A DNA stretch of 64,000 nucleotides, taken from positions 13,829,835-13,893,834 of the forward strand of contig NC_003076.8 of the NCBI RefSeq assembly GCF_000001735.4, in the 5' to 3' direction. This document shows, in pieces, positions 6,147-23,871 of the stretch (position 1 is its first letter; each line of letters begins with the position of its first letter). The stretch is from Arabidopsis thaliana. Lineage: Eukaryota > Streptophyta > Magnoliopsida > Brassicales > Brassicaceae. The translations under genes were made by a program, and so were the position numbers. The notes below the pieces were generated by a model that did not search any database, had not been told where the DNA came from, and saw only the letters and a program-made list of their open reading frames with translations.

Positions 6147-6155
6147 TACTTTTAT
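6147..6155 (+). repeat. Left target-site duplication of the VANDAL-like element
   Basis: TACTTTTAT, repeated exactly at 22006-22014. Nine bases is the usual Mutator-type target duplication. Confidence 0.9.
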
Positions 6156-6260
6156 AAGAAATTTTCACGGAAGTGGACGAAAAAAGATTTGCTCTCACCG
6201 TTTGTCAAAGTGAGAACTGGTTTTCACGGTTTGTCTTTTCATTCAATTTCGGACCAAATT
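6156..6260 (+). repeat. Left terminal inverted repeat of the MULE
   Basis: About 100 bases, imperfectly inverted at 21900-22005. The best conserved block is 6199-6242 (TTTGTCAAAG, then GGTTTTCACGGTTTGTCTTT). Confidence 0.75.
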
Positions 6261-6663
6261 ACCCTGAGAAAACTTAATAATTGCACAAACCAAACCGTGC
6301 AGCAGTTCGTATCGGTTAAGTTGATGGCATAAACCAAACCCTACAGCAGTTGTTTTCGGTTTAGTTTATGCGGTTCAGTTTTGAAAAAGACAAAAAAAAA
6401 AAAACTGAAACGAAGAAACCGAAGAAAAAGAAAAAGAGAAGAGAGTAACGGAGAGATTTGAGAGAGAATTAGAAAGCGAAACGAAATTCAGTATCCATTG
6501 CTTCAAAATTCGACATAACTTCGAATTGTTGGGTAGTTGAATTGAGCCACTGAACTCCCACAACCGGGGAAGAGAAAGTTACTGTTTTTCCCCGCGAAGC
6601 CAAGAGAAAGTTACTGTTTATTCCGGCGAAATTTGAACCTCCGGCGAAATAGCAACTTTAGCT

Positions 6664-9600
6664 ATGGCTGGGAATAAAGCAAACGACAAAGTCCCGAGGA
6701 AGTAGCATGGTCCAGGGAAGGAGAAGCGGGTATTAAGAGTTTCCCTGCGGAGAAAACGCTCTGCGACAAAGGCAACGGAGGAACTGGGTTAGAATCTCTA
6801 ATTTACCGTTTGTTGTCTTTGGGTGTATCAGAATTGTAAAGCTTGTTTGATTAAAAGGTTAGAACTAGTCGGAATTTAGCATATCTTTAGGATGAAAAAT
6901 TGAGAAGTAGAATTGGAAATCTCTGTTTCCGCCAAAAATATGATTTTGAGTTATAATCTGGAAAATGTTTGTGTACGTACACTACTTCGGTTTGCTTAGC
7001 AGTATATCACTTTTAATTGCAGGTAGTCCAAGTGTTGCTCCGACTGAAGATCTTACAGTTGAAGAGTTACCACCAAGACTCTTTGCTCTAGACCGGTACC
7101 CTTCTGAGACGAAGATGAACGCGTACTCTAAACCGGAGTACATTTCTTACATAGCAAATGTACTAAAGGGGAAACCAGAGATGCAGTTTCTTCTCGATTC
7201 TCCATTTGGGGAACTTTTTAAAATACCCAAAAACAAGGCATCTTTCAATGCTAAGCTTGTCCTTGGACTAATATGCCGTCAGTTAGTGACAAAGAAGGTG
7301 AATGAGATGTGGATTGTATTCGGCGGTCATCCAATCAAATTTGGATTAAGAGAATTTAGTATTCTAACTGGGCTGGAATGTGGGAAGTATCCCAAGAAGA
7401 AAGACGTGGAGGATGTTATCAGTGTGAAACCTGAGTGTGAAAGTGTTTGGAAGACTCTGTTTGATGAGAGGTTTGGGGACACGGTTCCAACAATTGCTGA
7501 TTTGGTGAGCTGGCTGCAGGAGGAGGAAAGCATGGAGGGGTGGAAGCAACTGGCACTATCTCTTATTATTTTGGTTGACGGTGTGGTAGCGGCCCACAGT
7601 AACCCCAACAGGGCTACTTCGAAGACTGTCGAGAAGACGAAGAACCTGGAGTTCTTCTGCAAATACCCATGGGGAAGGGTGTCCTTTACCCGTACTTTGG
7701 GGAGGATAGCAAAATTCCAAACTCCTTACGATGCTCAACAACTAATAAGGGGTTTACTTATAGGGTCTTATGCACTCCATGGCTTCCCATTAGCTCTCCA
7801 GCTTTTACCTTTTCGAAACAATCCCATCAATTGCTAAGCTAGGACCTGATGATGTACCTAACATGACATTTGCTGAGAGGTCTATCCATCGTCTTGCCTC
7901 ACTACGGGCAATCCGGACATCTCGCATTTTGGAGTGTGAGGCTGCTGATGAGGTGTGTTAAATTGTGTATGTACGTACATAATAAGTAAATGTACATTAT
8001 CTATGGTTAACATACTTATTTGTGTAGGTTGAGGTCAACTATATTGTGAAACCAGCTGATAATGTTTGTCCTCCATCTCTTTCATGGGATGATGAAGTTG
8101 ATGATCCAAGGGTTGATTACATTGAGGCACTGTTGATAGATGGGCACCAGTGGCAGGAGGATGAATGGGTTGGAGGCTATGCTAGAGTACCAAAGCAGGT
8201 GCGCCCACCACAAAAAGAAGAGATAGGTAAGTATAAGTATAAAGGTTGTTTACAAATTTTTTTGTTATTGCACTTAGAAGAAAACCAATTAATAGCAGCA
8301 ACTGGTCTATTGTAAATGTTAAGAGGAAACGAAATGCACCGGGCCCGAGCCCTAAAGAACCTGCTATGAAAAAACAGAAATCTCAAATGGACTGTGATAA
8401 TGAAGAAAATGCTGAGGATTGTTTTGGAGAGCCTGTGCCTGAGAGGATTATTGTTGAAATGAGAAGGTCTTTCAAGGAGCTGGAAGACCAAATGTATCAA
8501 ATGCAAGAAGATATGAAAGACTTTGTCCGTGAGCAGATACGTGTTGCCCTTGATCCAAAAGGCAAAAGGCCAGAACAAACCATACTTTCCCATGATTCGC
8601 GGGAACCACCTACTTCTATGGATAAGGCACCGGTTACTGCGAAGAAGCCATCGAGAAGGATGTCTACAAAAGGAAGCACTGGAACGAGAAAGTCTTCAAG
8701 GCTGACTCGTGTTTCTCATGATGTGGACACTTTTGCGCTTTCTGTTGGCTGTAATTCCAAAGAGGAAGATTTGGATGTCCCTGGTGTACATACCACTGCT
8801 GTCGGCGGAAGAAGAAAACCTTCAAAGCCGAAGAAAAATGTTTCTTTTGCTGTTGACACTACTGAGCTATCTGATTCCAATAAGGAAGATATGCAAGGAT
8901 TCATTGATGAACAGGTAAGTCATGTACGTACATTGCTAAAATATTTATAATCCATATGTATAACTGTACTGTCTGCTTTGATACAGTATGGCGCTAATAA
9001 TGAAAGTGATTTTACTACAAATGATGGATTGGATTCTTCGGCCGCTGAAGAAGAGATATTAGACACTGGATTTTTAATAGTTCCTTATGCTGGATCCACA
9101 CAATCCCATCTGGTATGTCGTCTACTAATACTCTTAACAATCTGTTTAAATGGTGTACATACATATTCGCTTAAGAAGTTAGTTAAACTATGTTTCAGGA
9201 TCGAGGAAATGTTGTTGTTGGTAAGACTGTCTTTTTAGGTTCAATGTCTGGGTTGTCTATGTTACACAGGAAAGGAGGCCTGTGGAAGAAGCTACTGTTG
9301 ACACCGAGATGGAAGAAGTTCCATCTAATGTGTCTGCAAGAGTTTCAGAGGTAGATCTTGTGGTAATCGTTATATACAGATTTCCATGACTATATGCGTA
9401 TATATTACATTAATTTATCCACTTATCTACCGCTTAACTCTATGGTAGCCTATGTTTCAGGATAATGGACCAAAGGATGTTGTTGAACCTGGCTTAGTTG
9501 GTACCCATACAGGGGCCGATGAAATAGCTGATGCTGACACAGAGATGGTAGACAATCCATCAGGTTTACCTTCAACATCTGCACAGGTATGTGTTAGTCA

Positions 9601-12319
9601 CTTGTTCTTTTTCCATATGTGTACGCCCATAAGACTTTGAAAATTATTTTTGTTTCAGGAAGAAACAAGAGATGTCAGTGTTGCGACTGAAGCTAATGGC
9701 AGCGAGTCAGAAGAAACTTATGAGCAATGTTTTTAAACCCGACCCAGACAGTGAACCGGACTACCTTCTGAGTCACTGGGTCATCGGGTCAACCAGGTTG
9801 GACCATGGGTCAATTAATTAAAATTTATTTAATAAATTTAATATTAATAGAGATTTTAGAGTTTTAAGAGTTCTTATACATTTAAAAACAAAATAATCAT
9901 ATAATGTTTATAAAATATAAAATCAGATTATGTTTAATAAAATATTAAATCATTTGCACCAAATATATATATATATATATATAAGCAAACAATAATAATA
10001 AAGTGACTAAATTTTTAAAATTCAACTAAATGTCTAATACCGTAACAAATATAGTAGGAGATCACCAATGACAGAAATAAACTAATAAAACATCGTGAAT
10101 TCACAGAACTAATATCGGGTGTCTCACTCACTATTCGATTTATTTTTTAAAGCAGCATTGTGAAGTCTTTATCAAAATCTAAAACATCAAATGAGTTTAA
10201 GAACTGAAATTTTTTCTAAAAATGTTTGAATAAAGTCTAAAATCCCATATTTTATTCCGAAATGAAGAGAAATTTTTTAAACCCACACCCAGCCGATTCA
10301 ACCGGTTCACCGGGTCACGGGTTAATGGTGAGTTTTTGTGGTTTTTTTTGGTTTTGAACTTGTCGGGTTTTAGCACTAAACCCTAACCGGAAAAGTATTC
10401 GGGTCACGGTTCAACCGGTCGGACCGAACGGTTCGGGTCGGGCATGAAAACACTGCTTATGAGCCTTCTGATGGAGATACAGCTCACATACCTGGCACAA
10501 GTGTACGTACATTTTTGTCACTATGTTCTGTGTACATATATATTGTTTCATACATTACTAAAAAGTTGCTTTCCGATGATAAATTCTACAGGTTGAGGCG
10601 GCAGGAGAATCCAAATTAGTGACAGGGATGGAAGTTGAAATACCTGAGAAGACCCACAGTGATCCCCCGTCACCATTTCAAGTAGTTAACAATGTAAGCT
10701 AACTCTTGCAAAAAATAAAATGTACTATTAACTGTTCAAATGTATAAAATTTATATTATGCAGGTCATACGGGAGTTGGATACCAAAGCCGTTGGTGATT
10801 TGGCTGCAGCTACTGATGTGGAGGTAACAATTTGTGTGTTTCAATTCCTATTCTCGGAATAACATACATAGGAGTATATGTGTACATTATATAGACTTGT
10901 GTACGTTAACTTGCACAGGTAGTGATGGAAGAGCCGGGTATTGTCGAGGGGTGTGTAGGAACTGAGGATCCTAACCCAGGGTCAGATGAAGCAGACAAGA
11001 CCGATATTCCTAAAAATAATGTATGTACCTATTTTAAACATAGAAAAACATATGAAACTGTTGTTGACAATCATATTTGTTAACAGGATGAATCAAACAA
11101 TGCTGCTGCTGTCGAAGTAAAAGAAGAAAAAAAAGCATCCCCAAAGGTCCCAAAAAAAGTGAAGAAGCAACTTGTCTATGAACAGGATGATGCCCATCCT
11201 GATGGTTTTAGGCAAAAACAGTCTTGGTGCCCGATGTACCAACTCAACAGACAGAGGTTGTTATAAGGGCTGGAAATGTCTCATACAATCCCCTGGACAT
11301 GGTTGACCTTTCAAAAGTAGAGGAATTCAGCAATATCATTAAAGGACCCTCTGTGTAAGTACATTATATTAAAATGGATTATTTAATATCTCAATCATTA
11401 TTTTTGCAAGTCTTAAGCTTGTTATCAAATATTTTTCTGGATTTACAGGATTCACACTCTTTTCGGGTTTCGCAAAGTGCCCAACGATTTTTTTGCGAAA
11501 CTTCTAACACCTAGTGAATGGGTCGAAAGTTCGGTACGTTGCATTTATATACGTACACTCCTTGTTATAAATTGTACATAGATGATTAAATTTTTGGTGG
11601 AAGTGTACGTACACTGATATATTTTTTGAACATTTCAGCATTTAGAAATGATGGCAATGTTGATGTGGGACAAGAACGGGGAACAGATGATAGCAAACAG
11701 ATGTATTGTATTGGACATGATGCTGACACATCTACTTACCAAGCGGGTGGGCGACTTCAAGAAGTGTATTAATAAGAACGGGTTCAAATGGGGTAAATTT
11801 ATGTCCGACATTGCTAATGGAGTACACATAAACCGTGAACCCAATATGAAGTGGTTGAAGGATGTCGATGTTGTGTATGCTCCGATGAACTAGAAGAGTA
11901 AACATTGGGTTGCTTTGGGAATCAACCTTAATGAACGGCTAATAACTGTGTATGACGCTTTAATATCGCACACGCGGGAGTCGGCTGTGAAGGCGAAAAT
12001 GACTCCTATTTGCGAAATGATGTCGTACTTAGTCAGAGCGATGTGCCAGGATGTATTGATTTCTCCGTACTCAGTTGAACCTTTTGAGTATGTGCGTTGT
12101 CCTACCGTTGCTCAAAACCCAACTATAGGAGATTGCGGGTCATACACGATGAAGTTCTTGGAGTTGCTTACGTTTGGACACCCTTTTTCGGAATTGACAA
12201 CCATTCGAGAAGCAGATATGGTCTTCTACCGTCAGAAATACTCGGTTGACATCTACGAGCACGGCAAGCGGGAGGTCGTACTGTGCAATTGCTTTAATCG
12301 TCCAAGAACAATATTCTGA
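6664..12319 (+). pseudogene. VANC-like DUF1985 plus Ulp1 (C48) protease gene, broken
   Basis: The start exon 6664-6787 (MAGNKANDKVPRK, basic) splices to 7023. DUF1985 follows (RLFALDRYPSETKMNAYSKP, then MWIVFGGHPIKFGLREFSIL and LHGFPLALQL), to about 7830. Then comes a long acidic linker spread over about ten small exons (to 11532), and last the Ulp1/SENP fold in 11639-12319. The catalytic triad is visible: His in KHWVALGI, Asp in TVYDALI and Cys in GDCGSYTMKFLE. DUF1985 proteins of VANDAL elements act as anti-silencing factors; Ulp1 proteases cleave SUMO. Damage: a TAG in the first exon, a frame change near 7805-7812, another in the exon after 11086, a TAG at 11891-11893 (APMN*KSKHW) and a hAT element in an exon at 9725. 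Several introns carry the GTACGTAC motif. The junction near 8226-8310 is uncertain. Confidence 0.8.
9725..10455. mobile_element. Non-autonomous hAT element, 731 bp
   Basis: It is flanked by an exact 8-bp direct repeat, CTTATGAG (9717-9724 and 10456-10463), the standard hAT target duplication. The inverted termini are CAATGTTTTTAAACCCGACC and, reversed, CAGTGTTTTCATGCCCGACC. It has no coding capacity and is AT-rich with GGGTC/CCGGTT-rich ends. It sits inside an exon of the DUF1985-Ulp1 gene: without it the reading joins as EETYE-PSDGDT. It is therefore younger than the host MULE. Confidence 0.93.
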
Positions 12320-12662
12320 TTCTTTACAACTAATTATTATGAACAAACCTATCTTACATATGTGATTGCAACTACATTTAATTTGGAGATTGTCTGAAGT
12401 TAATTTAGTTTCCTCGATCATATTGTCGTACACATCGTTCACTTCCAATTACATAATGTAAATGTGTACGTACATATCTATATGTCTCGTACACTGCATA
12501 TTAACTTTATAACATAACTCAAGTGATAAATTGATTTGACAGCCAACGCTTACCAACACAAGTATGACATTCATTTCAACTGTAATTGCCCCAACCAAAT
12601 TCACAGTAGTTGTTATTAAAGTGAAGAAATTACTGACGATCTCTGACTATCTCATTTCAAAC

Positions 12663-13358
12663 ATGGTTAACCCGACTCTTCCCGACGATTTACTCTCGAA
12701 GATAGCTAAGAACCTGGCTGACCAATGCTGGTCCGACCTTGGTCCACTGGTACGATCAGGCACTCGTGGAAGAGACATTGTCTACCGTCCGGATGTCCTC
12801 AAAGATGCCAATATTCTCACCTTGTGTAACTCGCCCGATGACTTCCAAGCTGGAGGGGGCCACAATCTCTCCGGATCCGCTGATGAAGGCCGACATCGAC
12901 CATTTTTTTTAAGGTGTTTTGCAGCTAATAATCCCACGGCCGTGTATTACGAAGGTATTCGTGTTCTAACGCATGAACGAAACATCAATGGAGCCATCAG
13001 GCTCTTACAGCATCATGCTCCAGTACGAGCAAATGCAACACTTGCATGCGCCATTGTATTCATATGTGCTGGGTATGATTATATGGGCGGCTTGTTTCTA
13101 CAGCTCTTCACCCGCAACCATTATCCATTGGACTCGGTTGCCACTCGAATTTTGGGTGATGAGTTCATCGAGGAAATAAAGAAGTTTGACCCTCCATACA
13201 TCAATACATATGGTCCTACGTTCTCTTATCCTACCAGCCATGGAATTAGTATGCCTCCTTGCGCCTTATATTGTTACATGGTATCAGGAGCTTTCCAAAA
13301 CGTTTGCAACCGCTGTTACCTCTGGTCGTGTGCTAGGCGTGTTAGTCAAATGCTATAG
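12663..13358 (+). CDS. F-box-like protein, At2g35280 type, MULE cargo copy 1
   Basis: The open frame is 231 residues without introns. The start MVNPTLPDDLLSKIAKNLA was chosen over an upstream in-frame ATG at 12564 because it matches the start of the second copy. Residues 5 to about 20 resemble the first helix of an F-box (LPDDLL.KIA). From about residue 75, FFLRCFAANNPTAVYYEGIR, then GAIRLLQ and ACAIVFICAGYDYMGGLFLQ, form the Sel1/TPR-like part of the At2g35280 family. The C-terminal C-rich stretch (CNRCYLWSCARRVSQML) is shared by the copies. F-box proteins normally recruit substrates to SCF ubiquitin ligases; that role here is inference. The frame is intact although the transposase and VANC-like genes around it are broken. 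Confidence 0.75.
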   Translation: MVNPTLPDDLLSKIAKNLADQCWSDLGPLVRSGTRGRDIVYRPDVLKDANILTLCNSPDDFQAGGGHNLSGSADEGRHRPFFLRCFAANNPTAVYYEGIRVLTHERNINGAIRLLQHHAPVRANATLACAIVFICAGYDYMGGLFLQLFTRNHYPLDSVATRILGDEFIEEIKKFDPPYINTYGPTFSYPTSHGISMPPCALYCYMVSGAFQNVCNRCYLWSCARRVSQML

Positions 13359-14126
13359 TTATTCAATTCTACTTTATATGTTTGTTTATGTTATCCGCTA
13401 TGTCATGTTTCAAATTATGATAAGGCTTCTACTATGTTGTTTATGTTTATGTAGAAATTATATTATTGCTTAAGAAATTTGCAAGGTGTGTTATGTTTCT
13501 CAAGTTGAATATTTTTCAGCCAAATTCGCATATGATATTTAGTTCCCGTAGTAAATATAAATTGTGGATATTAAAATCTAAGCGTCCACAACTACGTACA
13601 CGTGCATCTACCAAATAATACTTAAAGGTTTTTGGTTTATCTCGGAAAACTAGATATGGACGTACGCTAGCATGAGATATCAACTCTCACGTACACTAAA
13701 AAATACACATGCAAACATATGAGGTCTTTGGTTTGTCTCATAAATGGTGATATTTATGAATAGACGTACACTGATAGTACACTACAGCGTACACTGTTTG
13801 TTGGGCAAATGTAGAAATGTAAATGTGGACGTACACTAAAACGTACACTACAGCGTACACTGTTTTTTGGGCAAATGTAGAAATGTAAATGAGGACGTAC
13901 ACTAAAACGTACACGTCTAGTTTTAAGTTGTTATTAAAAAGAGGTTTCTCATAACAACAATAACAAATTATATATGGAATACTATTACGTTGATTTGACA
14001 ATACGAATACACATCATCATTTAATACCTTTGCAATAAATACAACCATAACTTACCCAACTATATCTTCAATGATGCTTATTTAAGTGTTGGAATTTCAT
14101 TTTGTTGAAACACCTTACTCCTAAAT
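13359..14126. other. Spacer with many ACGTACAC motifs
   Basis: No gene is seen. The spacer holds ACGTACAC at 13594 and 13689, ACGTACG near 13660, and the 65-bp tandem array listed separately. Such a dense cluster next to F-box-like copy 2 suggests a control or protein-binding region of the element. Confidence 0.6.
13763..13920 (+). repeat. 65-66 bp tandem repeat carrying GTACAC motifs
   Basis: About 2.4 units start GACGTACACT at 13763, 13828 and 13894. Each full unit holds three (A/C)GTACAC or AGTACAC words and a shared tail GGGCAAATGTAGAAATGTAA. Confidence 0.9.
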
Positions 14127-14819
14127 ATGCCAAACCCAAATATTCCTGATGATTTGCTTGCGAAGATAGCCAAGAAAATGGCTGACAAATGTTGGTGGTA
14201 CCTCGGACCTATGTTGAAATTCGGTCCTCGTGGAAGAGACATTGTCTACCGTCCAGATGTCCTCAAAAATGCAAACATTTTCAGCATGTGCGACGATCCC
14301 GATGACTTATACGCGGCAGGCCACGATCCAAATGACATCAACTCCGAAAGTCGCTATAGACCCTTCTTCAAACGGTGCTTAGAAGTTGGTAACCCCACAG
14401 CTATTTACCATGAAGGACTGCGTCTCGTTACACATGAGTCTGACATTCAGGGAGCTATCCTACACTTAGAGCGAATTGCCCCAAGGAACGCCGCTGCAAT
14501 CCTTGCATGCGCAATTCTTTACATATGTGCTGGTAATGCTCACATGGGTTGTGTCTACTTTCGGCTCTTCGGAAGCAACCATTATGCTTTGGAATCGGAG
14601 GAGGCACGTGAAATTTGTGAGGAGGTGCTAGAAGATATAAAGAAATATGGTAATACTTTAAAATACACATACGCTAACAGTTTTTCGTTCTCGGAATGTG
14701 GTGACGTAAGCAGTCCTGAATGCGCGGAGATGTGTTACATGAGATCGAGACTCTTCAATAATCTTTGCAATCAATATTACATCTGGTGGTGTGCTAAACG
14801 GATTAGCCAGATTCTGTAG
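14127..14819 (+). CDS. F-box-like protein, At2g35280 type, MULE cargo copy 2
   Basis: The open frame is 230 residues without introns, colinear over its whole length with the gene at 12663. Identical blocks include RGRDIVYRPDVLK. The N-terminal MPNPNIPDDLLAKIAKKMA is the F-box-like helix. The middle has FFKRCLEVGNPTAIYHEGLR and ACAILYICAGNAHMGCVYFR (Sel1/TPR-like), and the end CNQYYIWWCAKRISQIL is conserved. Divergence from copy 1 is large (many substitutions, few gaps), so the duplication is old, yet both frames stay open. The function is not known; a link to ubiquitin ligases is inference from the family. Confidence 0.75.
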   Translation: MPNPNIPDDLLAKIAKKMADKCWWYLGPMLKFGPRGRDIVYRPDVLKNANIFSMCDDPDDLYAAGHDPNDINSESRYRPFFKRCLEVGNPTAIYHEGLRLVTHESDIQGAILHLERIAPRNAAAILACAILYICAGNAHMGCVYFRLFGSNHYALESEEAREICEEVLEDIKKYGNTLKYTYANSFSFSECGDVSSPECAEMCYMRSRLFNNLCNQYYIWWCAKRISQIL

Positions 14820-15622
14820 AGCTCACATTCGCCACGATCCTGTCATATTTATAAGTTTTCCATGCAACAATATGTGAGCTTTTTACGTTGATTATCAGTA
14901 ATGGAAGTTTGTTTTTAATAATTACCACTTTGTAATTGATTCAAACATACTAACTCAAACTACTCTAATATGAGACATCATTAACACAAAATAATAATAA
15001 AATAATAAAATATCTACGTACACGATATATGCTAATGTACACGTGGCATAGTTTAATTCCAACTATAAAGATTACATAGTGAGCGACGATATAGTTAGTA
15101 AATGAAGACGAAAAGAAATTTGATTTGACGTCGTATAACCCATATCTAGAAGATTTTGCTCCATATTAATTACTTGCTGTCAAATACACTCTAGAAGTGA
15201 CCTCTATCACACTCTCATTAATATCTCTATTAGACGTACACGGTTTCCGAGCAACGTACTCAATTGATTTGGCAGATAAAATAAGTAAGTTAATGTTTAT
15301 TTAAAAAGATTGTAAGTAAATGCGTTGACCCCTAATATAGCACTATACATGAAGCCATATTGTTCCACTTATATGCAATACAAACAGACGTCAACTCAAC
15401 CTTGTGTCAGAAAACGTAATGAGTAGTTTATAGACGTACACGGCGCGATTATGAGAGGTACACAGTAGTTTGTTTAATTTAAAAGTTACTAATATGATGC
15501 ACTAAATATACATCCACGTCACCCACCCACTTACATTGATGGTTATTCTCCTCTTTAAAACTCATGTCAAACACACTTAGTTGAATACACGAATCCGTCT
15601 AAACCTCCTCATTTGAAAAACA
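14820..15622. other. Spacer inside the MULE with scattered motifs
   Basis: AT-rich with no open gene. ACGTACAC occurs at 15016, 15234 and 15434, with partial GTACAC words between them. Confidence 0.6.
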
Positions 15623-16258
15623 ATGTCTTTCATACCTCCGCTAACCCCTCCAACCGAGTTGTACCTAGGAATCCAATTGCCAAACCCCATAAGCATACTT
15701 GTCAACTAGCTCCCCGTCAGCCAGACTCCCATAGAGACGCTAAGGAACTTAGTCTACAGTTGTGACATCAACACCCTTGCAATCGATGAATTCATGATGT
15801 GGCCGTCGTTACTCCAACCGGAGTCTACCTTCCGGCCATACTTCGAGCTGCTTGTAGAACGTGGATCCATCCCGGCGGTTTACCTTGAAGGTGTTCGCCA
15901 AGCGAGCAACTTCGTGACATTAGCTCAGGGCCTTTCAGTCATGACAACGGTCGCTTTATCTGATCCCTTTGCTTGCTTCGCAACCGGTTTGTTCTTTACG
16001 TGTACCGGTAATCACTTGGATTTCCTCCAGATCAGCGAAAAGTTCTGGGAAATGACACCCACCCTTGAAGCTGGCCACGCGGTTGCAGAGATGGTGATGT
16101 ATCACATCAGCCAGCTTCACACTGAAAATGTTTGCCGCTGGGAAAGGTCTTGGAGGTTTGTCCACCCGCCGAGTTGCGTAGGGCAATGCACGTTCCATCA
16201 TGGCTGCAGGGTTTGTTTTTTCTACTGGTACGCCAGGGAGATTGCTATATTCTACTAG
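15623..16258 (+). pseudogene. F-box-like protein, At2g35280 type, MULE cargo copy 3, one stop
   Basis: The frame runs from ATG 15623 (MSFIPPLTPPTELYLG) to TAG 16258 with one internal TAG (after ISILVN, about codon 29). Downstream FRPYFELLVERGSIPAVYLE and CFATGLFFTCTGNHLDFLQI align with the Sel1/TPR-like core of copies 1 and 2. The C-rich end CVGQCTFHHGCRVCFFYWYA matches their C-terminal block. It is far more diverged from copies 1 and 2 than they are from each other. Translation could restart at MMWPSLLQ (15794), giving 154 residues without the F-box-like helix. Confidence 0.65.
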
Positions 16259-16460
16259 AAGCAAAGCTGCTAAGGTCTAAGCTACTCTACTCGGCTCTAC
16301 TCTCAAGTCTTTTGGTATGAGGGATGCACACATATTTTGCAACACATGTGTTCCATGTTCTTTGAAAAATTTATGTTTTTTGAATTGTTCCAACTCTGTT
16401 CCATGTTCAAGTTTATTTATCTTATGAATTTCCCCTTTAAGTTTTACTAGATGTCTTCGT

Positions 16461-16650
16461 GTACGTACACTATATAGTACATTAAACTTGGTTTATCGTA
16501 CATTGGAAAATTGCGTACACAACATAAGTATAAATCTAATAGTTTTTGATGTTGAAGGCACCAAAACTTATATACGTACACGATAGCGTACACCAGAAAC
16601 TATACGTACATTGCGAGAGGATTTGAACAATAAAACAAGGCACGTACATA
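16461..16650. repeat. Cluster of GTACGTAC and ACGTACA motifs
   Basis: GTACGTACAC is at 16461-16470. ACGTACAC is at 16574-16581 and ACGTACAT at 16604 and 16642. Shorter CGTACA words lie near 16498, 16515 and 16586. The cluster lies between F-box-like copy 3 and the end of the OB-fold gene. Confidence 0.75.
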
Positions 16651-16816
16651 AAACAACAAATTAGATTAACATTTAAACGGAAACAAGAAACAACAACGAC
16701 TGGAATGTAGTTTGGTTCTTATGGAAACAACAACAACAACAACTGGGAAAGAAAACTTAATTGAAATGTAGTCTTATATTATATTAAAACGGAGAATAAT
16801 GGTTCATTCCCTCTAG

Positions 16817-17753
16817 CTAAAAAACCACCATCGCGATATCCGCAACTTCTGGTCTGTCCGGATTGGCAACCACCTTTGAAATAGCACCATGGCTCTCAAG
16901 CTTCGGGTTAGACAATTCGGTTAAACGCCAAAAGCTGAGTGCGACAACAAAATTTCCCTTACCCAAACTCTGAAAGTAACCATCCAACTACTCCGCCTGT
17001 TGATTGCGGGCTTCGCACTCCAAGACTTCATTGCTACGTTAGAAATAAGGACAGTTAGCGTTTAGAGTGACATTGTAAATAAAACAAATGAAAAGAACAC
17101 TTACAATCTATCTTTTATCTTGAAACTCATTTTGAGACCGTAATAGTCTGTAGTCAATCCGCCAACATCAACCAACGCTCCAACGACATCTAGATGATGG
17201 AGAAACAAAGATAATAATCAAAAAATTTCAAAAATGTAATAAATGAAGCATCGGAGTTATTCCTCCTCACCGACTAAAACGTTCTTGTAAGCAGATTTCT
17301 CCAAAATGTAGTCGAAGGGAGTGAAATCGGAATCTGGAACTGGTGGTGATCTCGGTGGGGCCTGAACGACGACGGTCCGTATGCCGTATTCATGCTTTGT
17401 TTCTCTGACTGAGTCAGTTGCCTTACGGACCAAGAAAGAGGTGATCGTCTTCCACTTATTTTCAACGAATCGGTCTTCGTAAAACGGAGCAAGGCAACGA
17501 TCGACAGTGGCCTCAATACGGGAATTGTATCCCTACAGAACATGATAGTAGACAGTTTAATATACAAGTTAAGCGAATGAACGAGAAATACACATAATGT
17601 TTTGACGGAAATTACCGCGTAATCTGCCAAGATAAGGCCGAGTTCGAAGACGTTGGGCGATATAACCTTCTTGAAGACTCTCACGACAAAGACATAAATT
17701 CGCCACCCAGTGATCAGAGGACACAATTCTGAGACCATATGAAACCCCTCCAT
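16817..17753 (-). pseudogene. OB-fold (DUF223, RPA70-like) gene of the MULE, one in-frame stop
   Basis: Exon 17753-17616 encodes MEGFHMVSELCPLITGWRIY then VFVVRVFKK and ISPNVFELGLILADYA. Exon 2 starts at 17532 with GYNSRIEATVDRCLAPFYED then ENKWKTITSFLV. Exon 3 gives DVVGALVDVGGLTTDYYGLK. Exon 4 gives NEVLECEARNQQAE, a TAG, then LDGYFQSLGKGNFVVALSFW, ending at TAG 16817. This order (WRI.V.V.R..K, KW.TI..F.V, DV.G...DVG, N.V.C..WG..A) is the DUF223 replication-protein-A-like OB-fold set common in plant transposon-linked genes. It should bind single-stranded nucleic acid. Apart from the single TAG, the splice phases and coding sense are kept. I infer that it belongs to the element, since it lies between two of its genes. 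Confidence 0.7.
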
Positions 17754-18334
17754 CTCACGGATAGCAAGAACAAGCGAATCGAAAGACTAATTTTTTTTTG
17801 TGAATGATATAACTGCCGGCACAAGAAATAGGTTTAGAATGAGGATTCTGGATAAAATTAAGGAAGGGAGGAGACTTAAATAGAGGAAATCTGGAACGGC
17901 TACAGTTATTAATGCGGTTCCAACTACACTTGATTCAAATTTTTTGTACTAGTCTGGTAACCGTCATATAGGGTAATTATAACGTTGATTTGACAATAAA
18001 CAGCAACAGTTACGTCCTTTCCATTAAATACCAACACAACCACAATATACCCAACCATGTCTCCAACTCCGTTCATTTAAGAGGGGGAATAAGTTAGATT
18101 TTGAAAAAACTTATTTCAAATTACTCAAAATATTGAGCAACCACCTCTATGTACCCTTATTACATGAACTTTAACACGTACACAGACAAAAACGTACATA
18201 GTTATACGAACGTAGAGTTTAAACGTACGTATACAACGTACATAGTTACAGGTGGATTATATATAAACTTACGTACACCGAGAAAACACAGAAGCGTACA
18301 CTATATTGGCCGGCTCAGAAACTTGTCACCAGAA
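17754..18334. other. Spacer with ACGTACA cluster between OB-fold and transposase genes
   Basis: No gene is supported. ACGTACAC is at 18176 and 18271, ACGTACAT at 18192 and 18237, and ACGTACGT at 18223: five words in about 100 bases, just beyond the transposase stop codon. Confidence 0.7.
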
Positions 18335-21276
18335 CTAGATTGGATTTTTGCACGTCTTCTTGTTATGACCTGCTTGTCGACAGCGTGAGCACTGATTTGG
18401 TAAAAGTCTTTTCTGTCTCTTTTTCTGAAGTGACAAATACAGGAAGTTAAAAATCTCCGCATGGTAATACTCAAAATACAAGTAGATGAAGGAACGATGT
18501 TAGTACATACCCGGTTTTCACCTCTAGATGGGATCCTTTTGGACAGTGGTCTTCCTGGTGGCCGTCTACTGTATGGAGGAATGAGTATCAAATCCACTAT
18601 ATGTTGTGGGATGACAACATCTTTCGGATCCGCGATAGGTAGAATTGGTTCTTGGAAAGAATCAGAAAAAACGTTTGAAGGCCATACCACCATCCGACAC
18701 AAGCCTTCGGATCAATTCCATGCTCGATTGCAGCTGGTAGAGCGTGTTCACATGGGATTCTTAGCTTGGTGTACCTAAGACACGTACACGTACACTGGTC
18801 CAGAACGACATGAAAATGCTCACCGGATTTACTTGTCACTTGATAGCTCCACGGTCCAGACATCTTTACATCGTATTTACCTGACGCAGGAACCTCTTGT
18901 AGAAACCTCTCATCAACCTCAGGTATCACAGAAGATTTGCACCTAGCAACTTTCTTCCTCCTCGATGCGAACCATCGCATTAGGACATCCCGAATGAACT
19001 CGATCATGTAAACAATCGGATAAGTTTTTGCTTTTGTTAACACATGATTCATGGACTCAGAGTTGTTGCTAGACATGATATTGTAGCGTTCTCCTCTACA
19101 GTGAGCTCTTGTCCAATGCTCAAATCCTATGTCCTCTAGGTATTTTGCGCATTTAGCACTCTTTTCCCTTAACAGTTCAAAATATTTCTCGAAATCCCTG
19201 ACCCTATAAGCTTTGGCAGCGCTGAAAAATAAAGCAGACACACCAAACTTACCATAATAGGTGGAGAGGTTTCGCTCAAGGTGAACAGCACATGATCCAT
19301 GATGCACTCTCGGGTAAACAACACTTAGGCCTTTGTATATAGATGAATGTCTGTCTGAGACAATCATTAAATCGTCACTGTCTGGAACAATCTCAGCTAA
19401 CTTTTCAAAAAACCATGCCCAAGAAGCATCGGTCTCACCATCAACAACACCAAAAGCTATTGGGAATATTTGGAAGTTCCCATCTTGGGCACATGCAATA
19501 AGGAGACATTCTTTGTAAGGTCCGACTAGCTGCGTTCCATCTACCACAACTACCTTCCTCATATATATCAGACCTTTGATAGAAGCGCCAAGAGAGACAA
19601 AGACATACTTGAAGCGCTGCTTACCATCATCTTCTGGTGTATAGTGTATGTGTGTTATTGTACCCGGATTAGCTAATTGGAGAATATACAGATAGGTCGG
19701 CAAAAACCTGTAATTTGCTATCTCATCCCCCCTTACATTTTCCACTGCAACCTCTTTTGCTCTCCAAGCGGTAGAATATGAAATCCGCACATTCAGATCA
19801 TTTAGGAGCAGCTGTGGTAAATCGACAGCTCGCAGCCCACCCTGCGTAGAACTGTATCTGCTCCTCACAACTTCTCCGAGGAGCTTATAATTAGCATGTT
19901 TATTGTAGTTCTTCCGAGAGTCGATGTTACACGTATGTGTCGTAGCATACGAAGTGATTTTGAAACTTTATGAATCCTTCACGACGCGAGCAGTCAAATG
20001 CCATGGACAAGTCTCATCAACGCACACCATCTTCAATATTTTAGGACATGACTTAGGTTGCTTGAACCAAAAGCATTGCTTTATCGCTTGAAGAGACATT
20101 GTTTGTTGCAGGACTTTTCTATTCTTAAAAACACTTCCAACAAACAAAGTTTTGTCTGTGGTGCTGATTTCAACCTGTGTCTCATCAGCTCGAAAATTGA
20201 GTAAGTCATCGAACACAGGAGCAGCATCGTTACCGAGAATCGCCAACTCGCCACCATGTAACTTAGGAAATTCATTATACACTTGGTAAGCCTCGGCTGC
20301 GGTAACTACCCCATTATCATTCAGTGTCCCAGTTGAGGAAGCTCCAATACCGTCGATCACTTCATCCCCGGTGACTTCGTCTATACAAATAAGATTGGAA
20401 TCCCTTTGCCCTTCGCAGCGTGTACCGTAACCCAATGGAGAAATTGTTTCTCCGTCAGGTATACTAAGACCAGTGTACGTACACGTTTCCAAGAGACGAC
20501 TGAATTCCCCTGTATCTCCGCCAGGTACACTAACACCCGTGTACGTACACGTTTCCAATAAACAACTGAATTCCCCTGGATGTTGAGCAGTCTGTTGAGT
20601 GAGACTGACGTCTTCCTCAAGATTTCCTTGTACATATTCTTCTACTATTACATCGTTCCACTTGTTGTAATCGTATTCTTCGCCAATACCTTCACTACCG
20701 TCTGTGGTAGGATACAGGGTACTTCCCCCAATAGATCCATCCACACCAAGATAATCATCACACCCATCATCATCTTCGTTGCCATCCTCCACTTCATCCT
20801 CTTCTGTTGTATCGTCTTCAACATCGGCTTGCTCCTCTGCATCCTCATTATTTTCATCAACATTTGTAGCACTATCAAACACACGGTCACTTTCAGAAAC
20901 TTCACCATGAGACCTAGAGACAGTATTCCCGAACGCCTTCACGGTATTATTGAAAGAGACGAACAAGTTGAGAGAAAGATACCTACCACGAACCAAAAAA
21001 AAACGTGTCGAGACCCATCTGACTGTCAATGTATACAGGAGGGCGTTTAGTATCTATCAGCACTGACATTTCTCCCGGCATCCAGTAGCTAATTATGGGA
21101 TTGATCTCGGTGGACTTCAAACTGAAAGCCTCTCGGAGTGTACGGACAAAGTCCGTGTACGTCATGGTTTCCTGAACGCGTACACAACAACCAAACATGC
21201 CTTCCTCAGGTTCACATTTCCATTCTCCTTCTTTGCATTTCCACCCACCGACCATAGTAAATACGGGAATATCCAT
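18335..21276 (-). pseudogene. MuDR-type transposase of the VANDAL-like element, broken
   Basis: It starts at 21276 (MDIPVFTMVGGWKCKEGEW). An acidic region of about 100 residues follows, then the N-terminal zinc-binding region (CVDETCPWHLTARVV, THTCNID). The MULE DDE core has VVDGTQL, IVSDRH and NNSESMN. Next come a SWIM finger (CTCTCLRYTKLRIPCEHA), a basic RRPPGRP stretch and, after an intron (18425-18510), a CCHC knuckle, CSRCRQAGHNKKTC. It ends at 18335. Breaks seen: one extra base in a nine-T run near 21000, a TAA at 19968-19970, and a frame change at a T run near 18680. These are few, so loss of function may be fairly recent. A 22-residue tandem repeat (GEFSRLLETCTYTG) lies in the acidic region. 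Confidence 0.88.
20475..20548 (-). repeat. GTACGTAC-bearing 66-bp repeat in transposase codons
   Basis: GTGTACGTACACGTTTCCA occurs at 20473 and 20539, exactly 66 bases (22 codons) apart. It is translated as part of GEFS(C/R)LLETCTYTG. The full palindrome is kept in both units. Confidence 0.85.
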
Positions 21277-21899
21277 AACCCACCTGCATCATAAATTCAG
21301 GAGACACACATTAAATGCAACTGAAAAATACTATACATATAAAAAACAAATGGAATGTCGATACTACACATTTATAAACCTAAATACCAATTATCATTTG
21401 ACTATTTTAAACAAACAAATATAGATTTTTCAAATTTTCTGATAAAAACATGGAGTTCGAACAAAATCAAGATCCTAATATGACATAACAAAAAACTTCT
21501 TAAAAGAACTTCATTACTTACACGAGCAATGCTTGTTTTGGCTCCAAACTTGGTACAAAAACAAGATCAACACTTCTTCAGCAGCAATGTACGTTCTCAA
21601 TAATTCTTTGTTCCTGGGTTCATCTTCTTTATCTCAACAATTATTATCAATAATTTTTTTAATATTATTTGATGTAATGATGATTTTGCATTAATTGTGA
21701 CAATAGTCACATCTAAACTTTTTGGAGCATTAAATGTTGATGTCACTTCGGAATAATGGAAATAATCTCACTTGTAACGGAACCGAATCGCGTCAACGTG
21801 AAACAAATAATCTTCAACTGAACCGGAACAGTGTACGTAACTAAACATGCTAAACTAAACCGTACATTTCAACAGTTACTAAGAGAGAAGCGCAAGGGC
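21277..21899. other. Upstream region of the transposase gene
   Basis: AT-rich, with no open gene. It should hold the promoter and leader of the minus-strand transposase. A GTGTACGTAA near 21831 and a CCGTACATTT near 21860 are variant motifs. Confidence 0.5.
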
Positions 21900-22005
21900 A
21901 GAAGCGTCATTTTGTAAGCAAAAAGACAAATGGTGAAAACCACATTTGACTTTGACAATCCATGGAAATAAAACATGATCAACGGGTGTGAACCACAATT
22001 TACCC
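21900..22005 (-). repeat. Right terminal inverted repeat of the MULE
   Basis: Imperfect inverse of 6156-6260. Read on the minus strand it starts GGGTAAATTGTGG and holds TTGTCAAAG at base 48 and TTTTCACCATTTGTC further in. Confidence 0.75.
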
Positions 22006-22070
22006 TACTTTTATCAACATCATTTTTACTTTTCAGTTAACTAATACTTTTATCAACATCATTTTTAATC
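22006..22070 (+). repeat. Right target duplication and remnant of the host tandem repeat
   Basis: TACTTTTAT (22006-22014) matches 6147-6155. It is followed by CAACATCATTTTT and a second copy of TTTTACTTTTCAGTTAACTA, which also lies at 6127. The empty site would have been a tandem pair of a unit of about 38 bases. The element landed in its first copy. Confidence 0.85.
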
Positions 22071-22774
22071 CTTATAAACTCTGTTTATACAAATAGAGTA
22101 AAATTGTGATCAAAGGTTTTGTAATACGTTTTAAATTCACTATCCATTGAAATAGCTATAAACTAAAACACAAGACTTCCAAACTTTTTTAATTTATAAC
22201 TACTTGAAGCAGAGAATGTGGCACTTGGAAGAGCAATACAAATAAAACTGTTTGGTTTTATAAGATTTGTTAGCATGATTTGTATTTTATACAAGAAACT
22301 GTGGAAGTGTTCTGTGTGACATATATTCAAAATTCTTTGATTTTATTTCTTAAAACTATGTAATTCATGACAAGAAAGCATATTGATGCCGGCTTAATAA
22401 TCTTAAAATGTTATTTCGTATAAAGAGATGTGAAGAAATGTGTGTGATAGAACATATTATTGTGTATTTCCACATCTGTCTAAACCTAATTAATAAGTAA
22501 TTTGGTAATATGTGTATATCTTAGATATGATAATTGAACACAAAAAAATCGATTTGTTCGAAGTTTTAATATTCACTTATCTTTGATTATACGAAGAGCA
22601 ACAGATATAACTTACATGACAGTTAAGGCTTTGAGCTAGGCTACGTAAGGTGGCTTAATGCATCGGTAAACCGTGCATGAGACGTTATTTGTTTATTATA
22701 GTTTACCATTTGCTTACACTAATATTTCTACTCATAATATTTGGTTTTCAGATGAGTAGAGACGGTCGATTACT

Positions 22775-23871
22775 CTATCCTCCGCCGCCACCGCCTCCTC
22801 TCCATCCTCCTCCGCCACCGCCTCCTCTCCATCCTCCGCCGCCACCGCCTCCTTTCCATCCTCCACCTCTTCCACCGCCTCCCTGCCATCCTCCGCCATG
22901 TCCACCACCTCCTTTCCATCCTCCTCCTCGTCCACCACCTCCCTGCCATCCTCCGCCATGTCCTCCTCCACCTCCCTGCCATCCTCCGCCATGTCCACCT
23001 CCGCCTCCTTGCCATCCTCCGCCATGTCCACCTCCGCCTCCTTGCCATTGAATCTCTTCTGAGGCACCATTTATTTCTTCGTTTTCTAACTCAGCACCAC
23101 CTCCACCGCCACCTCCTCGGCCACCGCCTCCTTTCCATCCTCCGCCTTGGCCACCTCCTCCTTTCCATCCTCCGCCTTGGCCACCGCCTCCCTTCCATCC
23201 TCCGCCTTGGCCACCGCCTCCCTTCCATCCTCCACCTTGGCCACCGCCTCCTTTCCATCCTCCACCTTGGCCACCGCCTCCTTTCCATCCTCCACCTTGG
23301 CCACCGCCTTCCTTCCATCCTCCGCCATGGCCACCTCTATAATTTTGTACATCCTCATCTGACGCACTATCTATTTCTACGGTCTCTAACTCAGCACCGC
23401 CTCCACCACCACCTCCTCGACCACCACCTCCTCCTTTCCATCCCCCACCATGGCCACCGCCTCCCTTCCATCCCCCACCATGGCCACCGCCTCCTTTCCA
23501 TCCCCCACCATGGCCGCCGCCTCCTTTCCATCCCCCACCATGGCCGCCGCCTCCCTTCCATCCCCCACCATGTTGATCAATTTCATAATTGTTTTCTTCC
23601 TCTTTCTCAACGGTAGCCTCAACACCAACGTCTCCTTTATTGAGACTATCCTTAGCGTCGTTTTTTCCTTCTACGGTTGGTATCTCTACTTGCTTTTCAC
23701 CTGTTTCAAACCCCCACTCACATAAGAATTCTATCAAGCTTATAAAACATATACAGAAAAAAAAGTATAGTAAAAACCTTGTTTCTTGTCATCCACGGAA
23801 GTCTCTGCCGCAACAGCTACAACAACCGCCGCTACCAAAAGAAACCATACAATAAACGTTTTCGTATTCAT
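22775..23871 (-). CDS. Secreted glycine-rich protein (AT5G35660-like)
   Basis: Exons 23871-23778 and 23700-22775 give 339 residues. The N-terminus MNTKTFIVWFLLVAAVVVAV plus AAE is a clear signal peptide. A short charged region (EKQVEIPTVEGKNDAKDSLN) leads to three Gly-rich arrays built on GGGWKGGGGHGG, GGGWKGGGGQGG and GGGWQGGGGGHGG. They are divided by two related acidic spacers (AELETVEIDSASDEDVQNY and AELENEEINGASEEIQW). Such proteins usually go to the cell wall or apoplast. The plus strand reads as a Pro-rich frame, and other minus frames as repetitive Arg/Trp or Glu/Ala frames; these are shadows of the triplet repeats. The repeat number probably varies between accessions. Confidence 0.88.

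Follow-up and report, generated by a model that had tools for sequence, protein, structure and literature searches.

Why should one short word recur throughout a transposable element and be nearly missing from the DNA on either side of it? The question is raised by a VANDAL-type Mutator-like element (MULE) in a 64-kb stretch of the Arabidopsis thaliana genome (C5:13829835-13893834 of 119.66 Mb; hereafter the window, to whose coordinates positions refer). A sequence-only reading of this DNA had proposed that the word, ACGTACA and its palindrome, is recognized by the element's own anti-silencing protein. Our results partly sustain this proposal, for a clade of elements and not for one copy. At its core the word reads CGTACAY, in many places paired with itself to form the palindrome TGTACGTACA, and we consider it probable (roughly 0.85) that the VANC anti-silencing protein of this VANDAL-type clade recognizes it.

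Occurrences were counted on both strands, the element being taken as 6150-22015 and compared with the other 48 kb of the window. ACGTACA is present 42 times in the element and three times outside, close to the 'about four' good copies earlier estimated by eye; for ACGTAC the counts are 47 and 10. Dinucleotide shuffles (300) gave a mean of 1.96 and a maximum of 8 ACGTACA, and no shuffle preserving 2-, 3-, 4- or 5-mers (300 each; means 1.96, 2.72, 7.22 and 18.68) reached 42. The octamer GTACGTAC occurs nine times in the window, always within the element and as part of TGTACGTACA, a count attained solely by 5-mer-preserving shuffles (2/300). In an unbiased ranking of the element against the outside, CGTACA, ACGTACA and ACGTACAC came top among all 6-, 7- and 8-mers, respectively. 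The positions listed in the sequence-only reading were nearly all correct: 26 of 27 are exact, 18237 is off by one (18236) and 18223 is an ACGTAC without the following A. The list omits 13841, 13907 and 18788 and, on the reverse strand, 10900, 21156, 21588 and 21832.

The unit is not the palindrome, as had been suggested, but the half-word CGTACAY, with GTACGTAC as its doubled core. At the 54 CGTACA sites of the window element the next base is C in 41 and T in 13, and in no case A or G. The preceding base is A at 42 of these 54 sites, and the bases farther upstream tend to TGT, hence the palindrome TGTACGTACA.

The word is not a peculiarity of this copy. At least 15 other close copies exist, and each of the ten that we examined, alignable with the window from about 6150 to 22015 with gaps in some, carries ACGTACA 20 to 52 times (both strands, flanks counted). 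A sister subfamily, represented by one copy, B2, whose transposase is 78% and DUF1985 region 60% identical to those of the window element (A), holds 49 ACGTACA, 16 GTACGTAC and a word-bearing 114-bp array. In B2, A or G follows CGTACA at 14 of the 51 sites, unlike in its window sister. With the word masked (blastn, E 1e-3), 47 of the 54 A sites and 45 of the 51 B2 sites fall in DNA that cannot be aligned between the two. L001 and L003, two short loci whose ends are of A type or B type, contain 14 and 19 ACGTACA within 3 kb, where shuffling gives means of 0.40 and 0.56; both were discovered through the palindrome, so their richness in the word is partly due to how they were picked. The word claimed for one element is therefore shared by its clade: it has been retained across sister subfamilies whose noncoding DNA is mostly unalignable, and also on gene-less derivatives.

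Clusters of three words number 64 across the genome, compared with four for the reversed pattern, and 56 of them are no farther than 10 kb from a clade landmark, the landmark stretches making up 1.25% of the genome. Palindrome-plus-half pairs occur 157 times against 12 for the reversed pattern; among the first 100 of the 157, which represent 86 distinct starts, 73 of the 86 are near a clade landmark. One of the landmark sets came from a query derived from L003, a locus to which the word had led in the first place.

Within the elements the word is chiefly noncoding. ACGTACA density per kb outside and inside conserved coding-like blocks is 4.02 and 1.27 in the window element and 5.17 and 1.40 in B2, the blocks being defined by protein-level conservation between A and B2 (tblastx) and not by transcripts. 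Some of the sites scored as coding, such as that at 7970, sit just beyond an intron-like start. Part of the sites lie in tandem repeats of variable number: a 66-bp array has two units in the window copy and two to five in eight of the ten other copies, and was not found in A3 and A10, both of which lack this region. The main groups of sites are the following.

7970-7979, no strand: palindrome TGTACGTACA immediately within an intron-like start, at a place where B2 also has it
13763-13914, + strand: noncoding tandem array of 66-bp units carrying CGTACAC words, two core units in the window copy
15016-15440, + strand: scattered CGTACA sites, noncoding
16460-16648, + strand: CGTACA cluster including one palindrome, noncoding
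18176-18300, + strand: CGTACA cluster, noncoding
20445-20578, - strand: 66-bp repeat of two units with one palindrome each, in the transposase frame

Does the element encode a protein of the appropriate kind? PMC5735166 gives YAGTATTAY as the word of VANC21 in VANDAL21 (Hiun), gives AGTTGTCC and AGTTGTAC as the words of VANC6 in VANDAL6, and states that words differ among VANC families. The element, longer than the 6973-20548 first assigned to it, has this structure.

6147-6155, no strand: left target-site duplication TACTTTTAT, a 9-bp repeat
6156-22005, no strand: whole MULE/VANDAL-type element, 15,850 bp (sister alignments over about 6150-22015 and exact ends with the 9-bp repeat)
7064-7837, + strand: DUF1985 exon of a VANC-type gene (PF09331, E 7.1e-35)
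9725-10455, no strand: 731-bp insertion in the VANC region of the window copy, its inverted ends imperfect and its 8-bp repeats CTTATGAG exact
11894-12319, + strand: Ulp1 (Peptidase_C48) exon (PF02902, E 7.5e-41)
12564-13358, + strand: open reading frame (ORF) with a weak TPR_27 match, under the Pfam cut-off
14127-14819, + strand: ORF related to the preceding one, TPR_27 at the Pfam cut-off
18597-19967, - strand: catalytic part of the MULE transposase (PF10551, E 1.6e-16), in a frame separate from the N-terminal part in the window copy
19968-21053, - strand: N-terminal part of the MULE transposase, with a weak MuDR DNA-binding match under the Pfam cut-off
22006-22014, no strand: right target-site duplication TACTTTTAT

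The 9-bp duplication on both sides, as in MULE/VANDAL elements, is also visible by eye in several sisters (e.g. A4, A8, A9 and A11), and the transposase domain is that of a MULE. The DUF1985 exon, at whose edge similarity to B2 begins (7063-7064), matches the VANC21 sequence of the solved structure PDB 9lnj (E 2.8e-8) and is thus homologous to VANC21. Ulp1 and DUF1985 exons, both on the + strand, are the combination found in KIU-VANDAL elements; B2 (C1:17035600-17050800) also has both, with open frames, and in either element a joint transcript of the two is putative. In the window copy the VANC region carries the 731-bp insertion, missing from all ten sister copies compared, and the transposase is split over two frames: the catalytic frame is open for 456 amino acids, against 994 in several sisters. 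This copy is therefore probably defective. The insertion looks like a non-autonomous hAT-type element, a label that we infer.

Other VANDAL families were used as controls, at one locus per family. By their coordinates we take L028 to represent Hi/VANDAL21 and L027 to represent VANDAL6 (AT4G09370); the published words and the DUF1985/DUF287 domains found there agree with these assignments. At the VANDAL21 locus ACGTACA is absent and YAGTATTAY occurs 11 times, with 12 AGTATTAC where shuffles average 0.31. At the VANDAL6 locus there are one ACGTACA and six AGTTGTCC/AGTTGTAC (a raw count). Family C, whose DUF1985 is 41% identical, has one ACGTACA and 12 AACTAGTT (shuffle mean 0.52), eight of them in the stretch that surrounds a 321-bp array. 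Five AACTAGTT lie in another family C stretch (L031), which shares 98.8% identity with the first over 5.3 kb and is not independent, and a search for paired AACTAGTT gave 24 matches against 62 for the reversed control, which is uninformative on this family. The word thus differs among the VANC families at the loci sampled and appears to track the VANC clade, consistent with the rule of family-differing words in PMC5735166.

The likeness to the two characterized systems is one of principle. VANC21/VANDAL21 (PMC5735166) shares with the window element a MULE-encoded DUF1985 protein and a short word enriched in its own noncoding DNA, where it frequently sits in tandem repeats whose number varies; the system differs in its word, which lacks a CpG, and in a DUF1985 only about 25% identical, and the window element has an Ulp1 exon. 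VANC6/VANDAL6, described in the same source, has the same architecture and principle, with a different word devoid of CpG and a DUF1985 24% identical. In the proposed system, the DUF1985/Ulp1 protein would come from a clade member whose gene is intact and would bind word clusters that lie in introns and between genes, in relatives as well as in short gene-less derivatives. There it would strip DNA methylation and so permit transcription and transposition, whereas DNA poor in words would escape demethylation. Binding, demethylation and the reading of CGTACAY by this clade's VANC are what we infer.

Several results weigh against this interpretation. Ten of the 42 ACGTACA lie within coding-like blocks, while the VANC21 word sits in noncoding DNA according to PMC5735166, and the palindromes at 20474 and 20540 are truly inside the transposase frame. 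The single ORF examined for DUF287 (8028-8312) showed no match to this domain, which both VANC21 and VANC6 possess. The VANC6 word AGTTGTAC also occurs in the clade, once in A and twice in B2, and eight of the 64 genomic clusters, in four places, are away from clade landmarks. No 10.5-bp helical periodicity was seen in 87 distances (R 0.098). Lastly, conservation gives a divided answer. Across copies the noncoding CGTACA bases show a divergence of 0.021, against 0.045 in 20-bp flanks, and sites chosen in the window are intact in 327 of 360 cases compared with 817 of 1119 for other CG hexamers (p 0.011). Choosing sites by majority, the fairer comparison, gives 353 of 380 against 941 of 1058, which is not significant (p 0.063), and selection on the word is therefore only suggestive.

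Could the word serve something other than a VANC? A host transcription factor recruited to drive the element's genes, such as an SBP-box/SPL protein binding GTAC-core sites, deserves mention in that CGTAC is a common core. The SBP-box/SPL consensus is TNCGTACAA; it is fitted by seven of the 51 B2 sites and by none of the 54 sites of the window element, which do not look like SPL targets. The sites extend, moreover, over 16 kb of introns, intergenic DNA and arrays and are not at promoters, and other words occupy the VANDAL21, VANDAL6 and family C loci, which together make this origin of the word very improbable. We give still less credence to binding by the transposase. Sites in all copies examined and in the short derivatives would suit it, but the element has no CGTACA in its first 800 bp and only three in its last 700 bp, the sites being mostly internal.

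Growth of tandem arrays and shared descent might also have multiplied a functionless word, since the 66-bp and 114-bp arrays hold many sites and array size differs among copies. We regard such a neutral history as highly unlikely: arrays account for a minority of the blocks, the word recurs throughout DNA that is unalignable between A and B2, and the motif bases are less diverged than their flanks despite their CpG.

That CpG, at the centre of CGTACAY, a word often palindromic, is not shared by the VANC21 and VANC6 words and invites a more tentative elaboration of recognition by VANC. Whether the word is CG-methylated may directly govern binding, which may also involve a protein dimer; the outcome would be a self-reinforcing anti-silencing switch in which methylated words would resist and demethylated words would retain the protein. 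Among substitutions at the majority-chosen sites, 20 of 39 are C-to-T or G-to-A at the word's CpG, and under such a switch silencing would therefore erode the word too. We hold this elaboration to be rather unlikely; if the CpG does matter for binding, it would make the reading and erasure of methylation by a transposon protein easier to approach.

The system may already have a name. VANC1 targets VANDAL1, 2, 22, 1N1 and 2N1 according to PMC10398659, which also names public VANC1 bisulfite data (DRA013178), and PMC13317346 credits Sasaki 2022 with the finding that Ulp1-carrying VANDALs recognize one another's specific noncoding motifs. Ulp1-carrying VANDALs, mutual noncoding motifs, several related families and short derivatives are features that these descriptions share with our clade, and the VANC1 system may be the very system of the window element. 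The abstract of Sasaki 2022 is said to mention DUF1985, DUF287 and Ulp1 domains, at least ten Arabidopsis systems, and the sequence, density and helical periodicity of motifs. The idea of mutual motif recognition is thus probably in print, and the word itself may have been printed as that of VANC1; a literature search excluding most subscription journals and all figures returned no match linking CGTAC with VANDAL transposons in Arabidopsis. If CGTACAY has been reported for VANC1, our result is confirmation only; otherwise it adds a clear candidate to the few known VANC recognition words.

Some further observations concern the arrangement of the word. Non-palindromic CGTACA sites are polar in the window element (30 forward, 6 reverse), and between 11.5 and 18.8 kb (11500-18800) all 28 are forward and none reverse, the matching stretch of B2 having 19 to 5. 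The corresponding figures elsewhere are 22 to 9 for the whole of B2, 5 to 5 for the shortened copy A10, 3 to 4 for L001 and 4 to 7 for L003. At short loci such as C5:16908673-16908823, and at L003, palindromes recur every 21 bp, equal to two helical turns.

The related family with the word AACTAGTT, which carries Ulp1 and DUF1985 and the 321-bp array, occupies L029 and L030 (C5:14157500-14166500 and C5:14169501-14179500). Its enriched words, AACTAGTT (12, shuffle mean 0.52), CCATATGG (6, mean 0.25) and TATCCATA (16, mean 1.09), are candidate words of another VANC. In the window, a single-sequence structure prediction of the DUF1985 exon had a mean predicted local distance difference test score of 47.9, and its result was not used. 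Between the Ulp1 exon and the transposase (12564-16258) lie three + strand ORFs conserved in B2, one of them at the TPR_27 cut-off. Beside the element, at 22753-23632, is a long tandem array of units of about 30 bp, whose minus strand is open as a glycine-rich repeat protein.

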